Part shown: piece after piece, positions 32,883 to 45,017 of the stretch | Numbering within the stretch: the first letter of the stretch is position 1 | Layout of the letters: each line of letters begins with the position of its first letter | Virus record (IMG/VR): IMGVR_UViG_3300042448_002162 | Coordinates: 1 to 45,017 of that record | Source of the DNA: a virus | Strand: one strand, 5' to 3' | Length of the DNA stretch: 45,017 nucleotides | Position numbers and translations under genes: made by a program | Notes under the pieces: model-generated | What the model was told of the DNA's origin: nothing | The model's input: only the letters and a program-made list of their open reading frames with translations | The model's database searches: none

Positions 32883-32922
32883 CGCCTTCATCCTTCATCC
32901 TTCACTCTTCATCCTTCACCCC
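32883..32922 (+). repeat. CCTTCAT/CCTTCAC heptamer array
   Basis: About five 7-bp units of CCTTCAT/CCTTCAC type, between the giant gene and the next gene upstream. It reads CCTTCAT on the + strand against minus-strand genes, as do the other arrays. Confidence 0.8.
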
Positions 32923-37032: not shown

Positions 37033-37791
37033 ATGAAAAAATCCCCTATCGCGGCCCCTGCCGCTCCTGAATTCGCTAAGCTCGACTTGGCTAGCCTTGC
37101 CAGCGCATCAAGCGAACAAATCAAATCACTGGCAATCGCTGAATTTTCAGCTTTTGACGCCATCACAAATTCGCGCCTCCCTTATATGGGTGCAATCCGT
37201 CATCATGCTTCCCGCGCTGGCTTGTCACTCGCTGAACTCGTAAAAGAGCACGGTTCAAGCACGCGTAAAGCGTTTGAAGATTCCAAGTCGTTCGCTGAAA
37301 TCCTAGCGGCCCTTGGTTCCATCCTGCCGCAACTCGCTTATGAGTGCATCACACGCGCTGAAAGTCGCGAGCTTGCCACCTATCTTGCCAGCATCAAAAA
37401 AGATACTGGCACGCTGGAAAAGCTCACAAAGTATCTTAGCGGCCCTTGCAAGTTTCGCTCAGGATGGATTAAATACATTCTGGAAAAATTCCCTGCCACG
37501 GCCCCTGCCACGGATGACGCCACGGATGACGCCACGGATGACGCCACGGATGACGCCACGGATGACGCCACGGATGACGCCACGGATGACGCCACGGCCC
37601 CTGCCACGGCCCCTGCCATTATCAGCGCGATTGAACTTGTCGAGCTTGTAAAAGGCCATCTTTCCCGCATGAGTGACAAGCAAGCCGAAGCGGCACGCTC
37701 CATGCTGGCGGCCCTTTGTAACTCGCCTGAAAAGCTAAAAGTTCTGCTTTCGCCTCCCTCGAATGTGGCACCTTTCAAGGCGGCAGCATAA
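37033..37791 (+). CDS. Unknown protein with TDDA tandem repeats, 252 aa
   Basis: 252 residues from ATG 37033 (MKKSPIAAPAAPEFAKLD). GTG 37018 is possible but lies in the hairpin. Two helical regions (about 40-150 and 195-245) flank a linker of seven tetrapeptide repeats (D-D-A-T) with A-T-A-P variants on each side. No known domain. Base composition is lower in GC than the + strand neighbours and codon use differs, which points to a separate origin. A strong terminator follows, so it is probably transcribed as a single gene. Confidence 0.6.
   Translation: MKKSPIAAPAAPEFAKLDLASLASASSEQIKSLAIAEFSAFDAITNSRLPYMGAIRHHASRAGLSLAELVKEHGSSTRKAFEDSKSFAEILAALGSILPQLAYECITRAESRELATYLASIKKDTGTLEKLTKYLSGPCKFRSGWIKYILEKFPATAPATDDATDDATDDATDDATDDATDDATDDATAPATAPAIISAIELVELVKGHLSRMSDKQAEAARSMLAALCNSPEKLKVLLSPPSNVAPFKAAA
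37507..37590 (+). repeat. Seven 12-bp tandem repeats
   Basis: GCCACGGATGAC repeated seven times without a mismatch, flanked by diverged GCCACGGCCCCT units. In frame, so each unit encodes A-T-D-D. The copy number is likely to vary. Confidence 0.95.
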
Positions 37792-39101: not shown

Positions 39102-39149
39102 CCTTAAACCAGAGCCTCAGAGCCTCAGAGGTCAGAGCCTCAGAGCCTC

Positions 39150-39205
39150 TGACCTCTGACCTCTGACCTCTGACCTCTGACCTCTGACCTCTGACCTCTG
39201 ACCTC
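39150..39205 (+). repeat. Eight TGACCTC heptamers
   Basis: Eight perfect 7-bp units in front of the next gene. Upstream (39112-39149) come AGAGCCTC/AGAGGTC units, including the reverse complement, so an imperfect hairpin can form with the array. The same 7-bp unit size as the CCTTCAT arrays but a different sequence. Confidence 0.92.
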
Positions 39206-39219
39206 TAACTCTTCCCATC

Positions 39220-40226: not shown

Positions 40227-41180
40227 ATGGATCCCCTCACTCAAACCACCCTGCTGGCCCGCCAGAAATTCAGCCTCTTCGGCAACAACCTGAAAGACGA
40301 TGACCTCACCGATGAGGTGCACCGGAAGCACAACATGAGCGACAAGGCTGGAAAATACAGCCGCTGCCGCCTGCCGGATGACTGCCTCAAGCCCATCCGC
40401 CAGATCCGCAGCGCAGCGAAGAGCGACCACGAAAAGCAGACCTTCGTGGCCCCCTTTGGCAGCATCATCCCAGCTTCCCGCTCGGAAGCCTACCTGCGCA
40501 GCATGGCCGCATGGAAGGTGCAGTGGGACGCCGCCGTCCGCCGCTTCATCGACAATTACGCTGCCTACAAGCAGCGCGCCCGCCTTGAGATTTTGAAGGA
40601 TGCCTACCGTGAAGAGGACTACCCCGCCGCTCACACGCTACCTGACCTCTTCTGCTTCGATTACGGCCTGCTGCCCCTGCCCAATCCCGATGCTCTCGAC
40701 GCCGTGCCCGGCCTGTCCGATGCCCGTGTGCAGATGCTCAAAGACCAGCTTGCCCAAGCCACCGCACTGGCTGGCACCCAAGCCCGCAATCAGCTCATGG
40801 AGCGCATCACCGAGAAGATGAACAGGTTGTTCCAGTCCCTCTATGAGACCGGCCCCGATGGCCAGCCACGGCTCAAGGCCGAGCCGCAAATCCACGCCCG
40901 CACGCTGGAAAACCTCAACGAGATCCTTGAGCTGGCCCCGCAATACAACATGACGGCCGATCCCACCATCAACCGGCTGGTTTCAGATGCTCGCCGGATG
41001 CTCAACCGCACGCAGTCCGATCTGCGCGACAGCGCCATCGCCCGCACCAGCACCGCCGCTGCCCTGTCCACGCTGGCCACCAGCTACGGCCTCAACCTGG
41101 CCCCGCGCAAGCTCGCCGCCCCCGCCGCTCCGAAACCCGCTCCAGCACCTCAACCCACCCCTGACTCCATCGCCGCATGA
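40227..41180 (+). CDS. Unknown helical protein (DUF3150-like size and context), 317 aa
   Basis: 317 residues, almost all helical (EAYLRSMAAWKVQWDAAVRRFIDNYAAYKQRARLEILKDAY ... MLKDQLAQATALAGTQARNQLMERITEKMNRLFQSLYE ... LENLNEILELAP), with a Pro/Ala tail. The sequence style and the presence of an AAA ATPase further down make a DUF3150-type protein possible, but the match is from memory only. It overlaps the next gene by 4 nt (ATGA), so the two are coupled. A GTNAC array lies before it. Confidence 0.5.
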   Translation: MDPLTQTTLLARQKFSLFGNNLKDDDLTDEVHRKHNMSDKAGKYSRCRLPDDCLKPIRQIRSAAKSDHEKQTFVAPFGSIIPASRSEAYLRSMAAWKVQWDAAVRRFIDNYAAYKQRARLEILKDAYREEDYPAAHTLPDLFCFDYGLLPLPNPDALDAVPGLSDARVQMLKDQLAQATALAGTQARNQLMERITEKMNRLFQSLYETGPDGQPRLKAEPQIHARTLENLNEILELAPQYNMTADPTINRLVSDARRMLNRTQSDLRDSAIARTSTAAALSTLATSYGLNLAPRKLAAPAAPKPAPAPQPTPDSIAA

Positions 41181-41487: not shown

Positions 41488-41573
41488 GTTACATTGGGTG
41501 ACAATTAACTTTACGAAACACTGCCGCCAGTGTTCAGTTTAGTTAATTGTCACTTTTTGTTACAACCCGTCAC
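41488..41573. promoter_or_regulatory. Phased GTNAC array around a nested inverted repeat
   Basis: GTNAC pentamers at 41488 and 41498, then at 41549, 41559 and 41569, with exact 10-bp steps within each group. The second and third are the tips of a 13-bp inverted repeat, GTGACAATTAACT (41498-41510) with 41541-41553. Inside it lies a 7-bp stem, AACACTG (41517-41523) with 41528-41534. T5 follows the outer arm. The last site lies 7 nt before ATG 41581. It could be an operator, a terminator, or both. Confidence 0.65.
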
Positions 41574-41580
41574 CACCACC

Positions 41581-41814
41581 ATGACCATCGAAATCGCCAA
41601 TGGCACCGCCCGTGCCCTGTGGACGGATGCCGTCGATCTGCGTGAACTCGGCCCTTGCACGGTCGAGCGCGCCAGCACGGTGGACTTCAATTTCCTGACT
41701 CAGGAATGGGAAGTCCGAATCCAGTCCGACCACGCCCCCCTGTTCGCGCACTCCGACCGCAGCACCTGCCTGCAATGGGAGCACGATCACGACCACCTCC
41801 TCCTCGCCCAGTAA
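41581..41814 (+). CDS. Small plasmid/ICE-type protein, 77 aa
   Basis: 77 residues from ATG 41581 (MTIEIANGTARALWTDAVDLRELGPCTVERASTVDFNFLTQEWEVRIQ). The AVDLRELGPCTVERAS...V.. pattern and the late LQWEHDHDHLL recall a small family found in integrative elements and phages (memory-based). No known activity. Part of the accessory block. Confidence 0.55.
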   Translation: MTIEIANGTARALWTDAVDLRELGPCTVERASTVDFNFLTQEWEVRIQSDHAPLFAHSDRSTCLQWEHDHDHLLLAQ

Positions 41815-41838: not shown

Positions 41839-42294
41839 ATGTCCCACATCACCACCATCAAACTGGTCATCAAAGACCTCGCCACCCTCGAAGCCGCCTG
41901 CGCCGAACTCGGCGCATCCCTCCACCGCAACGTCCAATCCTACAACTGGTATGGCGCCAAAGTCGGGCCCGAGCCATTGCCGGAAGGCATGACCCTAGCC
42001 GACCTCGGCAAGTGTGATCACGTCATCCGCCTGCCGGGCGTGCATTACGAGATTGGCGTCGTCGCCAGCAAGACCACCGCCGGCAGTTACACCCTCGCCT
42101 GGGACTTCTTCGGCCAAGGCAAAAACCCGCGCCATGACGGGATGAAGCTCAAGGAGCGGTTCGGGGACAACCTCGTCCGCTTGCAGGACACCTACGGTGC
42201 CCACACCGCCATGGCCATGCTTCGGCAAAAGGGCTTCCTGCCCGTCCGCAAGACTCTGCCCAACGGGGCCATCCAGATCACCTGCGCCGCCTAA
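41839..42294 (+). CDS. DUF1257 (Ycf35-like) protein
   Basis: 151 residues. The opening MSHITTIKLVIKDLATLEAACAELGASLHR and the later YEIGVVASKTTAGSYTLAWDFFGQG...LVRLQDTYGAHTAMAMLRQKGFLPVRKTLPNGAIQITCAA match the DUF1257 family, whose plastid member is Ycf35. The family's biochemical role is unknown. In plastids, cyanobacteria and phages it often lies with a DUF2997 protein and an AAA ATPase of Ycf46 type, and this set is present here within 2.8 kb. Heptamer arrays separate the genes. Confidence 0.8.
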   Translation: MSHITTIKLVIKDLATLEAACAELGASLHRNVQSYNWYGAKVGPEPLPEGMTLADLGKCDHVIRLPGVHYEIGVVASKTTAGSYTLAWDFFGQGKNPRHDGMKLKERFGDNLVRLQDTYGAHTAMAMLRQKGFLPVRKTLPNGAIQITCAA

Positions 42295-42322
42295 CCTTCA
42301 TCCTTCACCCTTCATCCTTTCT
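42295..42322 (+). repeat. CCTTCAT/CCTTCAC heptamer array
   Basis: Four heptamer units between the DUF1257 stop and the GTG of the DUF2997 gene. The 3' end runs directly into the start region. Confidence 0.9.
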
Positions 42323-42511
42323 GTGAAAACCATCACCATCACCCTGCACAACGGAGCCACCTCCGTGGAGACCAGCGGCTTCAAAGGCAAATCCTGCCAG
42401 ACCACCACCGCCCAGATCGAGGCCGCACTCGGCACCGTCGAGACGGTCAAAAAGAAACCCGAGTTCCACGCCCAAACCAGCACCAGCACCTACCAAAACG
42501 CCAACGCTTAA
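42323..42511 (+). CDS. DUF2997 family protein
   Basis: 62 residues from GTG 42323. An upstream extension would read through the repeat array. MKTITITLHNGATSVETSGFKGKSCQTTTAQIEAALGTVETVKKKPEF has the DUF2997 arrangement (MKTIxVxxxxxGxxxVETxGFxGxSC...LExALG...KPEF). Partner of the DUF1257 protein by genome context. Function unknown. The same GTGAAAACCATCACC start context occurs at 36380, but the proteins are otherwise unrelated. Confidence 0.75.
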   Translation: MKTITITLHNGATSVETSGFKGKSCQTTTAQIEAALGTVETVKKKPEFHAQTSTSTYQNANA

Positions 42512-42540
42512 CCTTCATCCTTCACCCTTCATCCTTCCCC
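42512..42540 (+). repeat. CCTTCAT/CCTTCAC heptamer array
   Basis: Four heptamer units, filling the entire gap between DUF2997 and the ligase gene. Confidence 0.9.
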
Positions 42541-43635
42541 ATGAGCACCACCACTCTCTACAACCGCCAAGGCGGATCTGACAAAGTCTATCAGGTCACC
42601 ATCGACCCGATCACGGCCACCACCAGCATCGTCACCTTTGCCTACGGCCGCCGTGGCGGCACCCTGGCCACTGGCACCAAGACGCCCGAACCCGTCCGGC
42701 ACGCCGTTGCGGCAGACATCGCTACCAAACTCATCCGCAGCAAGCAGGCTGGCGGTTATGTCATCGCCACCGATGGCCAGACCGCGCCAGCCATCGCCCC
42801 AGCCGTCAGCACCGCTCCCACTGCCGACCCCACCCTGCCCATGCTGCTCAACAGCATCAGCGAAGCCGAGCTGGATCGCCTGCTGCGTGATGACCGCTAC
42901 TGCGCCCAGCAAAAGCACGACGGCAAACGCATGACGCTCACCCTCACCAGTCAGGGCGGCCGTGGTGTCGTCACCGCCGTGAACAAACGCGGCCTGCCCT
43001 GTGGCTTCCCCGCCACCGTCCAGCGCGCCATGCTTGCACTCGATCACGAATGTGTGATCGACGGTGAAATGGTGGGCGATACCTTCCACGCCTTTGATCT
43101 TCTGAGCATCTGCGGCGTGGACATCAGCCACCGTGAGTATTCCAGCCGCTTTGAGGCTCTTTGGAATATGCTCAACGATGATGGCGGCAATAGCCAGATT
43201 CACCTGCAATGCGTCGATTCCGAAGACGATTACGCAAGCAAGCAAGCCCTACTCAACGAACTCCGCGCCGACAATGCCGAAGGCATCGTCTTCAAAGACC
43301 TGCACGCCCCGTGGCAAAGCTCCCGCCCCAGCACTGGCGGCCCAGCCCTCAAGTTCAAATTCACCGAGACCGCCAGCTTCATCGTCGGCGGCATCAGCAC
43401 CGGCAAGCGCAGCGTCGAACTCATCCTCTACGAGGATCAGGCCCGCGTCCGTGGTGTCGGTGCCGTGACCATCCCGCCCAATCACAGCATCCCGCCCGCG
43501 GACTCCATTGTCGAGGTGCGCTACCTCTACGCCTTCCCTGGCGGCTGCGTCTTCCAGCCCGTCTATCTCGGCCCCCGTGACGATGTCACGCCCCAGGAGT
43601 GTCACATCTCCCAGCTCAAGCTCAAAGCCGCTTAA
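42541..43635 (+). CDS. ATP-dependent DNA ligase with N-terminal WGR-type domain
   Basis: 364 residues. The first about 75 are WGR-like (TTLYNRQGGSDKVYQVTIDPITATTSIVTFAYGRRGG... KLIRSKQAGGYV), with Tyr in place of the first Trp. A linker leads to a nucleotidyltransferase core: motif I K125-H-D-G-K-R130 (adenylated Lys125), NKRG at 148-151, VIDGEMVG at 172-179, HAFDLL at 183-188, motif IV EGIVFK at 247-252 and motif V KFKF at 271-274. The C-terminal about 85 residues would be the OB-type domain. It seals nicks in DNA. The two-domain fusion recalls the DNA ligase/WGR proteins of some bacteria and phages. Confidence 0.85.
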   Translation: MSTTTLYNRQGGSDKVYQVTIDPITATTSIVTFAYGRRGGTLATGTKTPEPVRHAVAADIATKLIRSKQAGGYVIATDGQTAPAIAPAVSTAPTADPTLPMLLNSISEAELDRLLRDDRYCAQQKHDGKRMTLTLTSQGGRGVVTAVNKRGLPCGFPATVQRAMLALDHECVIDGEMVGDTFHAFDLLSICGVDISHREYSSRFEALWNMLNDDGGNSQIHLQCVDSEDDYASKQALLNELRADNAEGIVFKDLHAPWQSSRPSTGGPALKFKFTETASFIVGGISTGKRSVELILYEDQARVRGVGAVTIPPNHSIPPADSIVEVRYLYAFPGGCVFQPVYLGPRDDVTPQECHISQLKLKAA

Positions 43636-43640
43636 CCCAA

Positions 43641-43665
43641 CTCCTCACCCTTCATCCTTCTCCCC
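43641..43665 (+). repeat. CCTTCAT-type heptamer array, shortened
   Basis: CTCACCCTTCATCCTTCTCCCC, about three units, fills the gap before ATG 43666. Confidence 0.75.
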
Positions 43666-44235
43666 ATGTCCCAGCCCGCCCTCAACACCGACCTGCTCAA
43701 AGCCGCCAAACACATCAGCAGCGCCGTCATGGCTGCCTCCCGCGCGGAGGTGGCCCGCCACGTTTGGACCAGCCTCAAGTGGCAGATCAAAGGCGATACC
43801 GCCGCCCATCTCTGCCACCTCTTTGGCAACATGCTCGAAGGCAGCGAAGTCCTCGACCTGCGTAACAACAGCGACGGCACTCCACAGCCCTTGTTCACCC
43901 TGCTCCGTCGCAACCTGCCCCATGACCATCCGGCATGGGCATGGGTGATCTGCCCCCATGGGGCCGAACAGCACCAGCCCAACCCCCAGCAGCAGTATCT
44001 GGAAGACGGCGGCACCACCTGTCCGCACTGCGGCAGCACCGCCATTCAAGCCAGCAACTTGGAGCCGGACGGCATGACCGCCGACCAGATGGTCGATTGT
44101 CAGGAGTGCCACGCCTCATGGTGGGATCAGTTCCACCTCATCGGCTACCGCGACCTGCAACCACCCTGCACCACACCCGAAGAGGATGAAGGAATCCCCC
44201 TGTTCCACTCCGAAGAAACCCACCATGAAGACTGA
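43666..44235 (+). CDS. Unknown zinc-ribbon protein, 189 aa
   Basis: 189 residues. A helical N-terminal half precedes a zinc-ribbon-type segment, CPHCGSTAIQASNLEPDGMTADQMVDCQECHASWWDQ (about 119-155), with two C-x-x-C pairs, suiting nucleic acid binding. A Pro/Glu tail follows. It overlaps the next gene by 11 nt. No specific family named. Confidence 0.6.
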   Translation: MSQPALNTDLLKAAKHISSAVMAASRAEVARHVWTSLKWQIKGDTAAHLCHLFGNMLEGSEVLDLRNNSDGTPQPLFTLLRRNLPHDHPAWAWVICPHGAEQHQPNPQQQYLEDGGTTCPHCGSTAIQASNLEPDGMTADQMVDCQECHASWWDQFHLIGYRDLQPPCTTPEEDEGIPLFHSEETHHED

Positions 44236-44545
44236 ACAAATCCCCAACCTGCCCGCCAACACCGTCCCCTGGGTCATGGCCGTGCCTGTCGTCAGCACCC
44301 GCCACATCAAGGAGACCGACAACGCCGCCCTGCTTGAGGAAGATCCGCACAGCAGCCCCATGATGGCCCGCCTGCCAGGCGGCTATCTGCTCGATGTCGA
44401 TGACCTCAGCGAATGGATGGAAGACGCCTGTTACTCAGATGCCTTCCTCAACCTCATCGAAACCTTCCACAACCTCGGCTTCCACCACCTCCGCCTCGAC
44501 GGCGACGGTCAGGAATACTCCGACCTCCCCACCTTCAACTGGTAA
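44225..44545 (+). CDS. DUF5983-like protein
   Basis: 106 residues from ATG 44225 (MKTEQIPNLPANTVPWVMAVPVVSTRHIKETDNAALLEED ... YLLDVDDLSEWMEDACYSDAFLNLIETFHNLGFHHLRLDGDGQEYSDLPTFNW). The STRHIKETD, SDAFLNLI and closing L-P-T-F-N-W recall DUF5983, a small family common on plasmids and ICEs (from memory). Its start lies inside the zinc-ribbon gene, so the two are coupled. Confidence 0.55.
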   Translation: MKTEQIPNLPANTVPWVMAVPVVSTRHIKETDNAALLEEDPHSSPMMARLPGGYLLDVDDLSEWMEDACYSDAFLNLIETFHNLGFHHLRLDGDGQEYSDLPTFNW

Positions 44546-44572
44546 CCCATCACATAAACCACCCACCATCCC

Positions 44573-45017
44573 ATGAACACCACCACCCTGCTCACCCAAC
44601 GCATCCAAGCCGGCTACGCCGGACTCATCCTTGTCTCCCATGAGGAGTCACGCGCCGAAGCCCTGCTCGACGCAGTCTGCACCAGCCTGGAATACGGCCT
44701 ACACGCATGGTCAGTCACGCAAGGCCGGGTCGATACCCGCGCTCAAACCGTCGCCGCCGAAGATGCCTTTGAAGTCCTCAAAAGCGTCAGCGGTCTGCCT
44801 GAAAAGACCGTTCTGCTCCTGCGGGATTTCCATCTGATCCTGGCCGATCCCAACCCCATGCTCTACCGCCAGCTCAAGGACAGCCTGCAGATATGCAAGC
44901 AGCGCCTCATCAGCATCGTCATGCTCATGCCAGAGGTGAAGCTCCCCATTGACTTGGAGAAGCACTTCTCCGTCATCGACTTCGCCCTGCCCGACCGTGC
45001 CGAACTGCTGGCACTGG
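44573..45017 (+). CDS. AAA ATPase N-terminal part (Ycf46-like), cut by window end
   Basis: At least 148 residues are seen, and no stop occurs before the window ends. The visible part (LLTQRIQAGYAGLILVSHEESRAEALLDAVCTSLEYGLHAWSVTQG ... EKTVLLLRDFHLILADPNPMLYRQLKDSLQICKQRLISIVMLMPEVKLPIDLEKHFSVIDFALPDRAEL) matches the N-terminal domain of the Ycf46/FtsH-type AAA ATPases (pattern xARYPLIxVxTxEExR...LxDxHxfL...PExKLPxELEKxxxVxDxPLPDRxEL). The Walker A motif would lie beyond the window. It completes the DUF1257-DUF2997-ATPase set. Confidence 0.75.
   Translation, partial: MNTTTLLTQRIQAGYAGLILVSHEESRAEALLDAVCTSLEYGLHAWSVTQGRVDTRAQTVAAEDAFEVLKSVSGLPEKTVLLLRDFHLILADPNPMLYRQLKDSLQICKQRLISIVMLMPEVKLPIDLEKHFSVIDFALPDRAELLAL

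Follow-up and report, generated by a model that had tools for sequence, protein, structure and literature searches.

The DNA analysed here, a window of 45,017 bases that constitutes the complete virus record IMGVR_UViG_3300042448_002162, carries at its right end most of a module of five genes with counterparts on other phages, an archaeal virus and plasmids. The module encodes a Ycf46-type tandem AAA ATPase, a DUF1257 (Ycf35-type) protein, a DUF2997 protein, a DUF3150-family protein and a small protein of a family that we call p94. Genes for Ycf46 and Ycf35 are found in red-algal plastids and in cyanobacteria, and we know of no biochemistry for either protein. With a probability of roughly 0.5, we interpret the module as a conserved mobile-element system that specifies a machine with its own dedicated adaptors for the ATP-driven remodelling of proteins, which would act on DNA-bound complexes of the element. 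The carrier looks like a temperate tailed phage, since the window encodes a portal protein, a major head protein, a tape-measure match and an integrase, as well as an amidase.

An earlier, sequence-only reading of this DNA had placed DUF1257, DUF2997, the N terminus of an AAA ATPase, a DNA ligase, a zinc-ribbon protein and a DUF5983-like protein in one cluster at positions 41839–45017, the right end of the window, and we find all six genes there on the + strand. The left border at 41839 cuts the cluster, to which a DUF3150-family gene (40227–41180) and a p94 gene (41581–41814) also belong, and the module thus comprises five genes rather than the trio of DUF1257, DUF2997 and ATPase. Membership was assessed by a held-out procedure, in which each family was first stripped of the window sequence and of every near relative, a profile was rebuilt from the rest and all fetched open reading frames (ORFs) were searched. 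All five families were recovered in the window in this manner, with E values of 8e-13 to 5e-26.

Specifically, the DUF1257 protein (41839–42294, + strand, 151 amino acids) is recognized by a profile of 76 members from outside the window lineage (4.8e-26, 91 bits). It has no direct match to the Pfam family PF06868, is linked by tblastn to the copy of Pseudomonas phage SM1, and has relatives in SM1, Aeromonas phage HJ05 and Rhizobium phage I4 that exceed the PF06868 cut-off; a search with the I4 protein matched its sister phage only. The DUF2997 protein (42323–42511, + strand, 62 amino acids, with a likely GTG start at 42323) matches PF11211 directly (2.3e-12, 47 bits against a cut-off of 24.1), as do relatives from outside the lineage, and is found by its held-out profile at 4.6e-17. 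The p94 protein (+ strand, 77 amino acids) belongs to no named Pfam family; its held-out profile gives 8.1e-13, and hhalign aligns it with the I4_88/SM1_31 family at 98.1% (E = 7.5e-14). The DUF3150-family protein (+ strand, 317 amino acids; held-out profile 8.8e-26) has no direct match to PF11348, which matches 5 of the 10 members of the family (best 1e-24).

The ATPase gene (44573–45017, + strand) is represented by its first 148 codons, corresponding to the start of the degenerate D1 half. Because the record ends at 45017, the end of the ATPase is missing and its own Walker motifs cannot be read. This N-terminal portion has no direct Pfam match and is recognized by the held-out profile at 8.9e-22. 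Four relatives in IMG/VR share 85–92% identity with it, and it is 92% identical to a complete gene (L010:10001-11536) on the 63-kb record IMGVR_3300046004_002250, hereafter L010 (L-numbers label the fetched loci or contigs used in the comparison). The L010 protein has 512 amino acids, with the Walker A motif GMPGTGKS, the Walker B motif YIDEID, an AAA domain at residues 265–387 (PF00004, 5e-23) and a weak AAA_lid_3 match. The Walker motifs, on which the sequence-only reading had staked its proposal, are therefore present in a full-length relative. Among 45 distinct full-length homologues scoring above 250 bits, 44 carry exactly one Walker A motif, which is invariably located in the second half. 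In the remaining protein (L054:2299-4911), a 280-residue insert splits the motif between GPPG and TGKS; this apparent intein begins with Cys, ends with His-Asn and contains an HNH-like stretch.

An AlphaFold model of the L010 ATPase (predicted local distance difference test, pLDDT, 88.5) was compared at full length with PDB structures using Foldseek. The best match is the D1–D2 tandem of p97/Cdc48, over roughly 550 columns and with a template modelling score (TM-score) of 0.62 by query length. D2 alone, about half of the protein, is too small to produce this score, and we thus interpret the N-terminal half as a degenerate AAA module. The L010 protein accordingly shows the degenerate first half, active second half and single Walker A/B pair of a Ycf46-type ATPase. 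VCP/Cdc48 proteins also top the list in a PDB profile search, and by these matches the module ATPase belongs to the classical AAA clade. It is not Cdc48/p97 proper, as NCBIfam TIGR01243 gives 71.5 bits against a cut-off of 802.65 and covers one half only. The two share the paired AAA halves, the whole-length fold, the classical core and a P-loop in the second half, whereas the module ATPase lacks a P-loop in the first half and an N-terminal ubiquitin-adaptor domain, and its partners are unrelated small proteins. A 209-amino-acid protein encoded 3′ of the ATPase (L010:11536-12165) has DnaJ-like CxxCxGxG repeats and no Pfam match.

The neighbours of the ATPase are non-random. When viral contigs were drawn from IMG/VR by the AAA protein alone, DUF1257, DUF2997 or DUF3150 was found within the fetched neighbourhood in 18/18 high-scoring contigs (AAA above 250 bits) and in 6/35 lower-scoring ones (Fisher p = 2e-9), a contrast that may be sharpened by the seeding of the AAA ranking profile with module-bearing loci. 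Similar results were obtained for DUF1257 (14/18 versus 3/35, p = 6e-7) and DUF2997 (16/18 versus 3/35, p = 9e-9) separately. DUF1257 and DUF2997 occur together in 41 loci, with DUF2997 the next module gene after DUF1257 in 33 and the order reversed in five; strand relative to the ATPase is mixed in L095 and L143 only. DUF3150-type genes adjoin the AAA, DUF1257 and DUF2997 genes in many contigs, and p94, outside the window lineage, usually lies directly 3′ of DUF2997. If the window lineage is counted once, all five families are present together in ten loci; for example, a Nitrospirota contig (L149) carries AAA, DUF1257, DUF2997, DUF3150 and p94 back to back. The loci are not a random sample, and some of them share a genome; these counts show recurrence rather than frequency. 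The gene-order comparison that the sequence-only reading had called for thus comes out in favour of a conserved neighbourhood around DUF1257.

Carriers of the module include phages (Pseudomonas SM1, Aeromonas HJ05, Rhizobium phages, Agrobacterium JP1 and Rhodobacter RcMenchie) and plasmids of Aeromonas (pRA1, IncA), Thermovibrio, Planktothrix, Paenibacillus, Nostoc and Vibrio; divergent members were already picked up by the seed-only profiles, ahead of iteration. The phages SM1 (a Samunavirus), HJ05, I4 and L338C (the latter two from Rhizobium) resemble the window in having AAA, DUF1257, DUF2997 and p94-family genes in the same order, but DUF3150 and a homologue of the window ligase were not found there, and a different protein is encoded 3′ of the AAA gene. 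In the Acidianus tailed spindle virus, an archaeal virus, the genes A525, A128 and C70 (L028:4285-6515) encode consecutive AAA, DUF1257-like and DUF2997-like proteins, the small ones recognized by seed-only profiles at 7e-6 and 2.4e-10, whereas p94 and DUF3150 were not found. Likewise, the MOBH conjugative plasmids pRA1 (L094:4038-6198) and Vibrio pVPS91 carry AAA, DUF1257-like and DUF2997 genes consecutively but have other neighbours, with p94 and DUF3150 not detected. The DUF2997 search also matched about 23 similar large enterobacterial and Aeromonas plasmids.

Some candidates fell away. Upstream genes of pRA1 and of the Vibrio, Thermovibrio and Planktothrix plasmids, proposed as DUF3150-like by size and position, align with the family at below 1% by hhalign; Firecracker gp99 (25%) and the Nostoc upstream gene (19%) score higher and stay as candidates, both without Pfam support. 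The ATPase of the Streptococcus satellite Javan368 is a related AAA protein with no partners and was not retained as a module member.

Among cellular genomes, DUF2997 is rare in Nitrospirota (5/198), and DUF1257 occurs in 59 of 117 sampled Cyanobacteriota genomes, mostly in one to three copies. The 58 genomes lacking DUF1257 are, where listed, mostly small (about 2–4 Mb) and are perhaps non-photosynthetic relatives or picocyanobacteria. Cyanobacteria and the module share the DUF1257 and DUF2997 families, and the cyanobacterial AAA protein adjoining DUF1257 matches the module AAA profile at about 1e-160 to 1e-170. The regions fetched, from three genomes, hold DUF2997–DUF1257 pairs or AAA–DUF1257 pairs; they differ from the module in that the pairs lie at separate sites, with no DUF3150 or p94 seen in these regions. 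One such pair belongs to the Synechocystis cluster duf2997-ycf35-fed7, which includes a ferredoxin gene (PMC4284462). Ycf46 is slr0374 in the slr0373–slr0376 operon (PMC7496141), and we infer that slr0374 and slr0376 form an AAA–DUF1257 pair. In the claim that the trio is conserved from plastids to phages, the plastid end is carried here by cyanobacterial homologues.

Several features point to DUF1257 and DUF2997 as a unit. On the Nostoc plasmid pC052_F, the two are fused into one 188-amino-acid protein (L098:5605-6168) encoded next to the AAA gene. Furthermore, the distances among AAA, DUF1257 and DUF2997 proteins co-vary over 32 loci (Mantel r = 0.28–0.45, p ≤ 8e-4). Both small proteins have strongly conserved positions. 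The DUF1257 protein of the window begins with Met-Ser-His, and among 36 distinct sequences Ser2 is found in 100% and His3 in 91%; the Cys of the DUF2997 GxxC motif is present in 39/39 distinct relatives and in the window copy. A structure model of DUF1257 (pLDDT 83.7, predicted TM-score 0.81) matched nothing in the PDB at E ≤ 0.001, and its fold thus gave no hint of function. Apart from the Nostoc protein, a cyanobacterial DUF1257 domain is located C-terminally on an apparent NACHT-type nucleoside triphosphatase (NTPase) split into two ORFs (L145:2697-5372), a fusion that looks real. The supposed cyanobacterial fusions L144 and L146 are merely open frames extending upstream of an internal Met-Ser-His start.

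In the mechanism that we favour, the ATPase is predicted to work as a hexamer in the manner of Cdc48/p97. The first AAA half, lacking a P-loop, would probably form a docking ring, and the second half would burn ATP and pull on protein substrates. DUF1257 and DUF2997 would most likely constitute one small adaptor or substrate unit, acting through the nearly invariant Met-Ser-His with which DUF1257 begins and, in DUF2997, through the invariant Cys, with DUF3150 and p94 as putative helpers. In phages and plasmids, the complex so formed would act while the element is replicated or partitioned, and would remodel or dismantle a protein assembly on that element's DNA. Of this picture, the analysis demonstrates the module with its gene order, the fusion, the co-variation and the class and fold of the AAA protein, and the complex, its unfolding activity, the adaptor role and the DNA-bound target are deduced. 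A DNA-related setting is reasonable independently of the ligase, because a DnaB-type helicase lies near the module in 13/38 compared locus groups and a Pol I in 9/38, and ParA/ParB-type genes are near it in the Planktothrix and Vibrio plasmids, mycobacteriophage Firecracker and L010; the last also encodes an N6-methylase and gives a weak match to a DNA clamp. These neighbours support a role in mobile elements that is early or on the side of replication, although a DNA target is not proven thereby.

Four observations weigh against this interpretation. The cyanobacterial pairs are split, with DUF2997–DUF1257 at one site and AAA–DUF1257 elsewhere, and the five genes are hence not an obligate set. 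Firecracker has the ATPase, yet DUF1257 and DUF2997 are not detectable in this phage. Phage DnaB distances also correlate with those of the AAA protein (r = 0.96, 9 loci), so co-variation alone is no proof of interaction. Finally, a Synechocystis Ycf46 mutant has lower activity of the carbonic anhydrase EcaB (PMC7496141, citing Jiang 2015), and this phenotype, the only one quoted in the literature found, does not point to DNA.

The main rival to the remodelling interpretation, which we nonetheless regard as unlikely, is a redox- or metal-linked regulator, in which the DUF2997 Cys and the DUF1257 His would perform thiol or metal chemistry while the ATPase resets or assembles the target, the whole serving as a stress unit that elements carry and that keeps the host fit. 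The strict conservation of the Cys, Ser2 and His3 agrees with such a role, as does the ferredoxin gene of the Synechocystis cluster (PMC4284462). The slr0373–slr0376 operon is stress-responsive, reacting to iron, sulfur, nitrogen, salt, light and oxidative stress (PMC7496141), and the neighbours of the module in the Paenibacillus locus include a DsbA-family protein and one of 4Fe-4S type. However, no ferredoxin or Fe-S protein was recognized next to the module in the phage loci inspected, and a lone invariant Cys may be structural. Quite unlikely, in our judgement, is a conflict system with which the element defends itself against other elements or counters host defence. The carriers (phages, plasmids and an archaeal virus) would suit it, the apparent joining of DUF1257 to a NACHT-type NTPase suggests that DUF1257 is employed in a conflict protein, and PADLOC (8.8e-29) and NCBIfam match the AAA core to the anti-phage protein IetA. 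That likeness concerns the AAA core only, at 90.6 bits against a curated NCBIfam cut-off of 510, and no IetS-type protease was recognized nearby, nor any peptidase family in a Pfam scan of the cluster proteins; the module was therefore not identified as IetAS. Moreover, no recognized toxin or nuclease is a constant member, and the module lies near replication genes. The suggestion of superinfection control in the sequence-only reading finds no support, as PADLOC yields only the generic AAA core and a WGR domain.

That earlier reading had drawn a function from the ligase within the module. A view in which the ligase is integral and the cluster serves as a DNA end-joining or repair unit is, in our judgement, very unlikely. 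The gene (42541–43635, + strand) encodes a 364-amino-acid WGR-domain ATP-dependent DNA ligase (PF01068, 4.5e-10, above the Pfam cut-off) that combines a KxDG motif, a nucleotidyltransferase domain and a WGR domain; the last (residues 3–92) scores 20.9 in Pfam against a cut-off of 22 and 7.5e-21 with PADLOC WGR_XIII, and the protein falls below every NCBIfam equivalog cut-off. The motifs KHDGKR, FHAFD, EGIVFK and KFK are all present, and are by sequence those of an active nucleotidyltransferase. End joining would also fit a ligase homologue (9e-51) near the module in L053, which has the ATPase, DUF1257, DUF2997 and p94 as well, and, in Firecracker, a Ku-like gene at a distance of about 4.7 kb from the AAA gene. 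Yet L053 is the sole fetched locus outside the window lineage with such a homologue, in a survey that covered homologues of the window ligase and did not seek unrelated ligases. Found near the module in two lineages only, the ligase is a recurrent accessory and not the key to the module; what survives of the proposed DNA-related function is its setting among helicase, Pol I and partition genes, not the argument from the ligase. The same helicase and Pol I neighbours could suggest a replicative helicase loader or a replisome assembly factor for phage DnaB, which is least probable of all. DnaC and DnaI belong to the initiator clade of AAA proteins, whereas the top matches of the module ATPase are classical AAA proteins, and a DnaC/DnaI-type assignment was rejected on this ground. 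In addition, the cyanobacterial AAA–DUF1257 pairs sit in host genomes.

Returning to the remodelling machine, we see an even chance that the module represents a hitherto undescribed AAA system of ancient origin, which has five components and is spread by phages, archaeal viruses and conjugative plasmids, with cyanobacterial Ycf46, Ycf35 and DUF2997 as a domesticated or sister branch. Neither the five-gene module nor a phage or plasmid form of it was found described in the literature searched, and DUF3150 is not mentioned there, subscription papers being outside the scope of both searches. That the families co-occur in Nitrospirota and IncA-type plasmids as well as in tailed phages and an archaeal virus suggests that they work as a single machine, probably with a non-photosynthetic substrate. 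If so, the phage or plasmid version would offer a genetic handle on a long-standing cyanobacterial and plastid unknown, with small genetic systems available for scoring the effect of losing the module. Two recurring partners, DUF3150 and p94, are added to the Ycf46/Ycf35-type families, which defines the proteins to purify together; residues worth mutating are DUF1257 Ser2 and His3, the DUF2997 Cys and the AAA Walker B motif.

Two further genes lie between the ligase and the ATPase. One (43666–44235, + strand) encodes a 189-amino-acid zinc-ribbon protein with a C-x2-C ... C-x2-C motif and no Pfam family above cut-off, and the other (44225–44545, + strand, with the frame open from 44186) a DUF5983 protein of about 106 amino acids that exceeds the Pfam cut-off (PF19419, 1.3e-11). 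Homologues of either were found among the fetched loci in the window lineage only. Together with the ligase gene, the two are passengers or accessories specific to the lineage.

Just 5′ of p94, a hairpin (41496–41555, + strand) combines a 15-bp outer and a 7-bp inner stem (−32.8 kcal/mol, z = −7.6). In the near relative L010 the outer stem is identical and the inner stem is altered yet still pairs. An Rfam scan of the window, hairpin included, returned no family, and the element is a possible terminator, attenuator or operator.

The window also holds several repeats. Arrays of the heptamer CCTTCAT occur at 32885, 36345, 36635, 39872, 42295, 42512 and 43649, mostly intergenic and in a single orientation, with 18 near matches of CTTCATCCTTCA against 0.17 expected; such arrays are also present in the relatives L010 and L011 and not in four other module phages checked. 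A perfect tandem repeat at 37507–37597 comprises 7.6 copies of the 12-bp unit GCCACGGATGAC inside an ORF of repeated DATD, and another at 39146–39206 comprises 8.7 copies of the 7-bp unit CCTCTGA.

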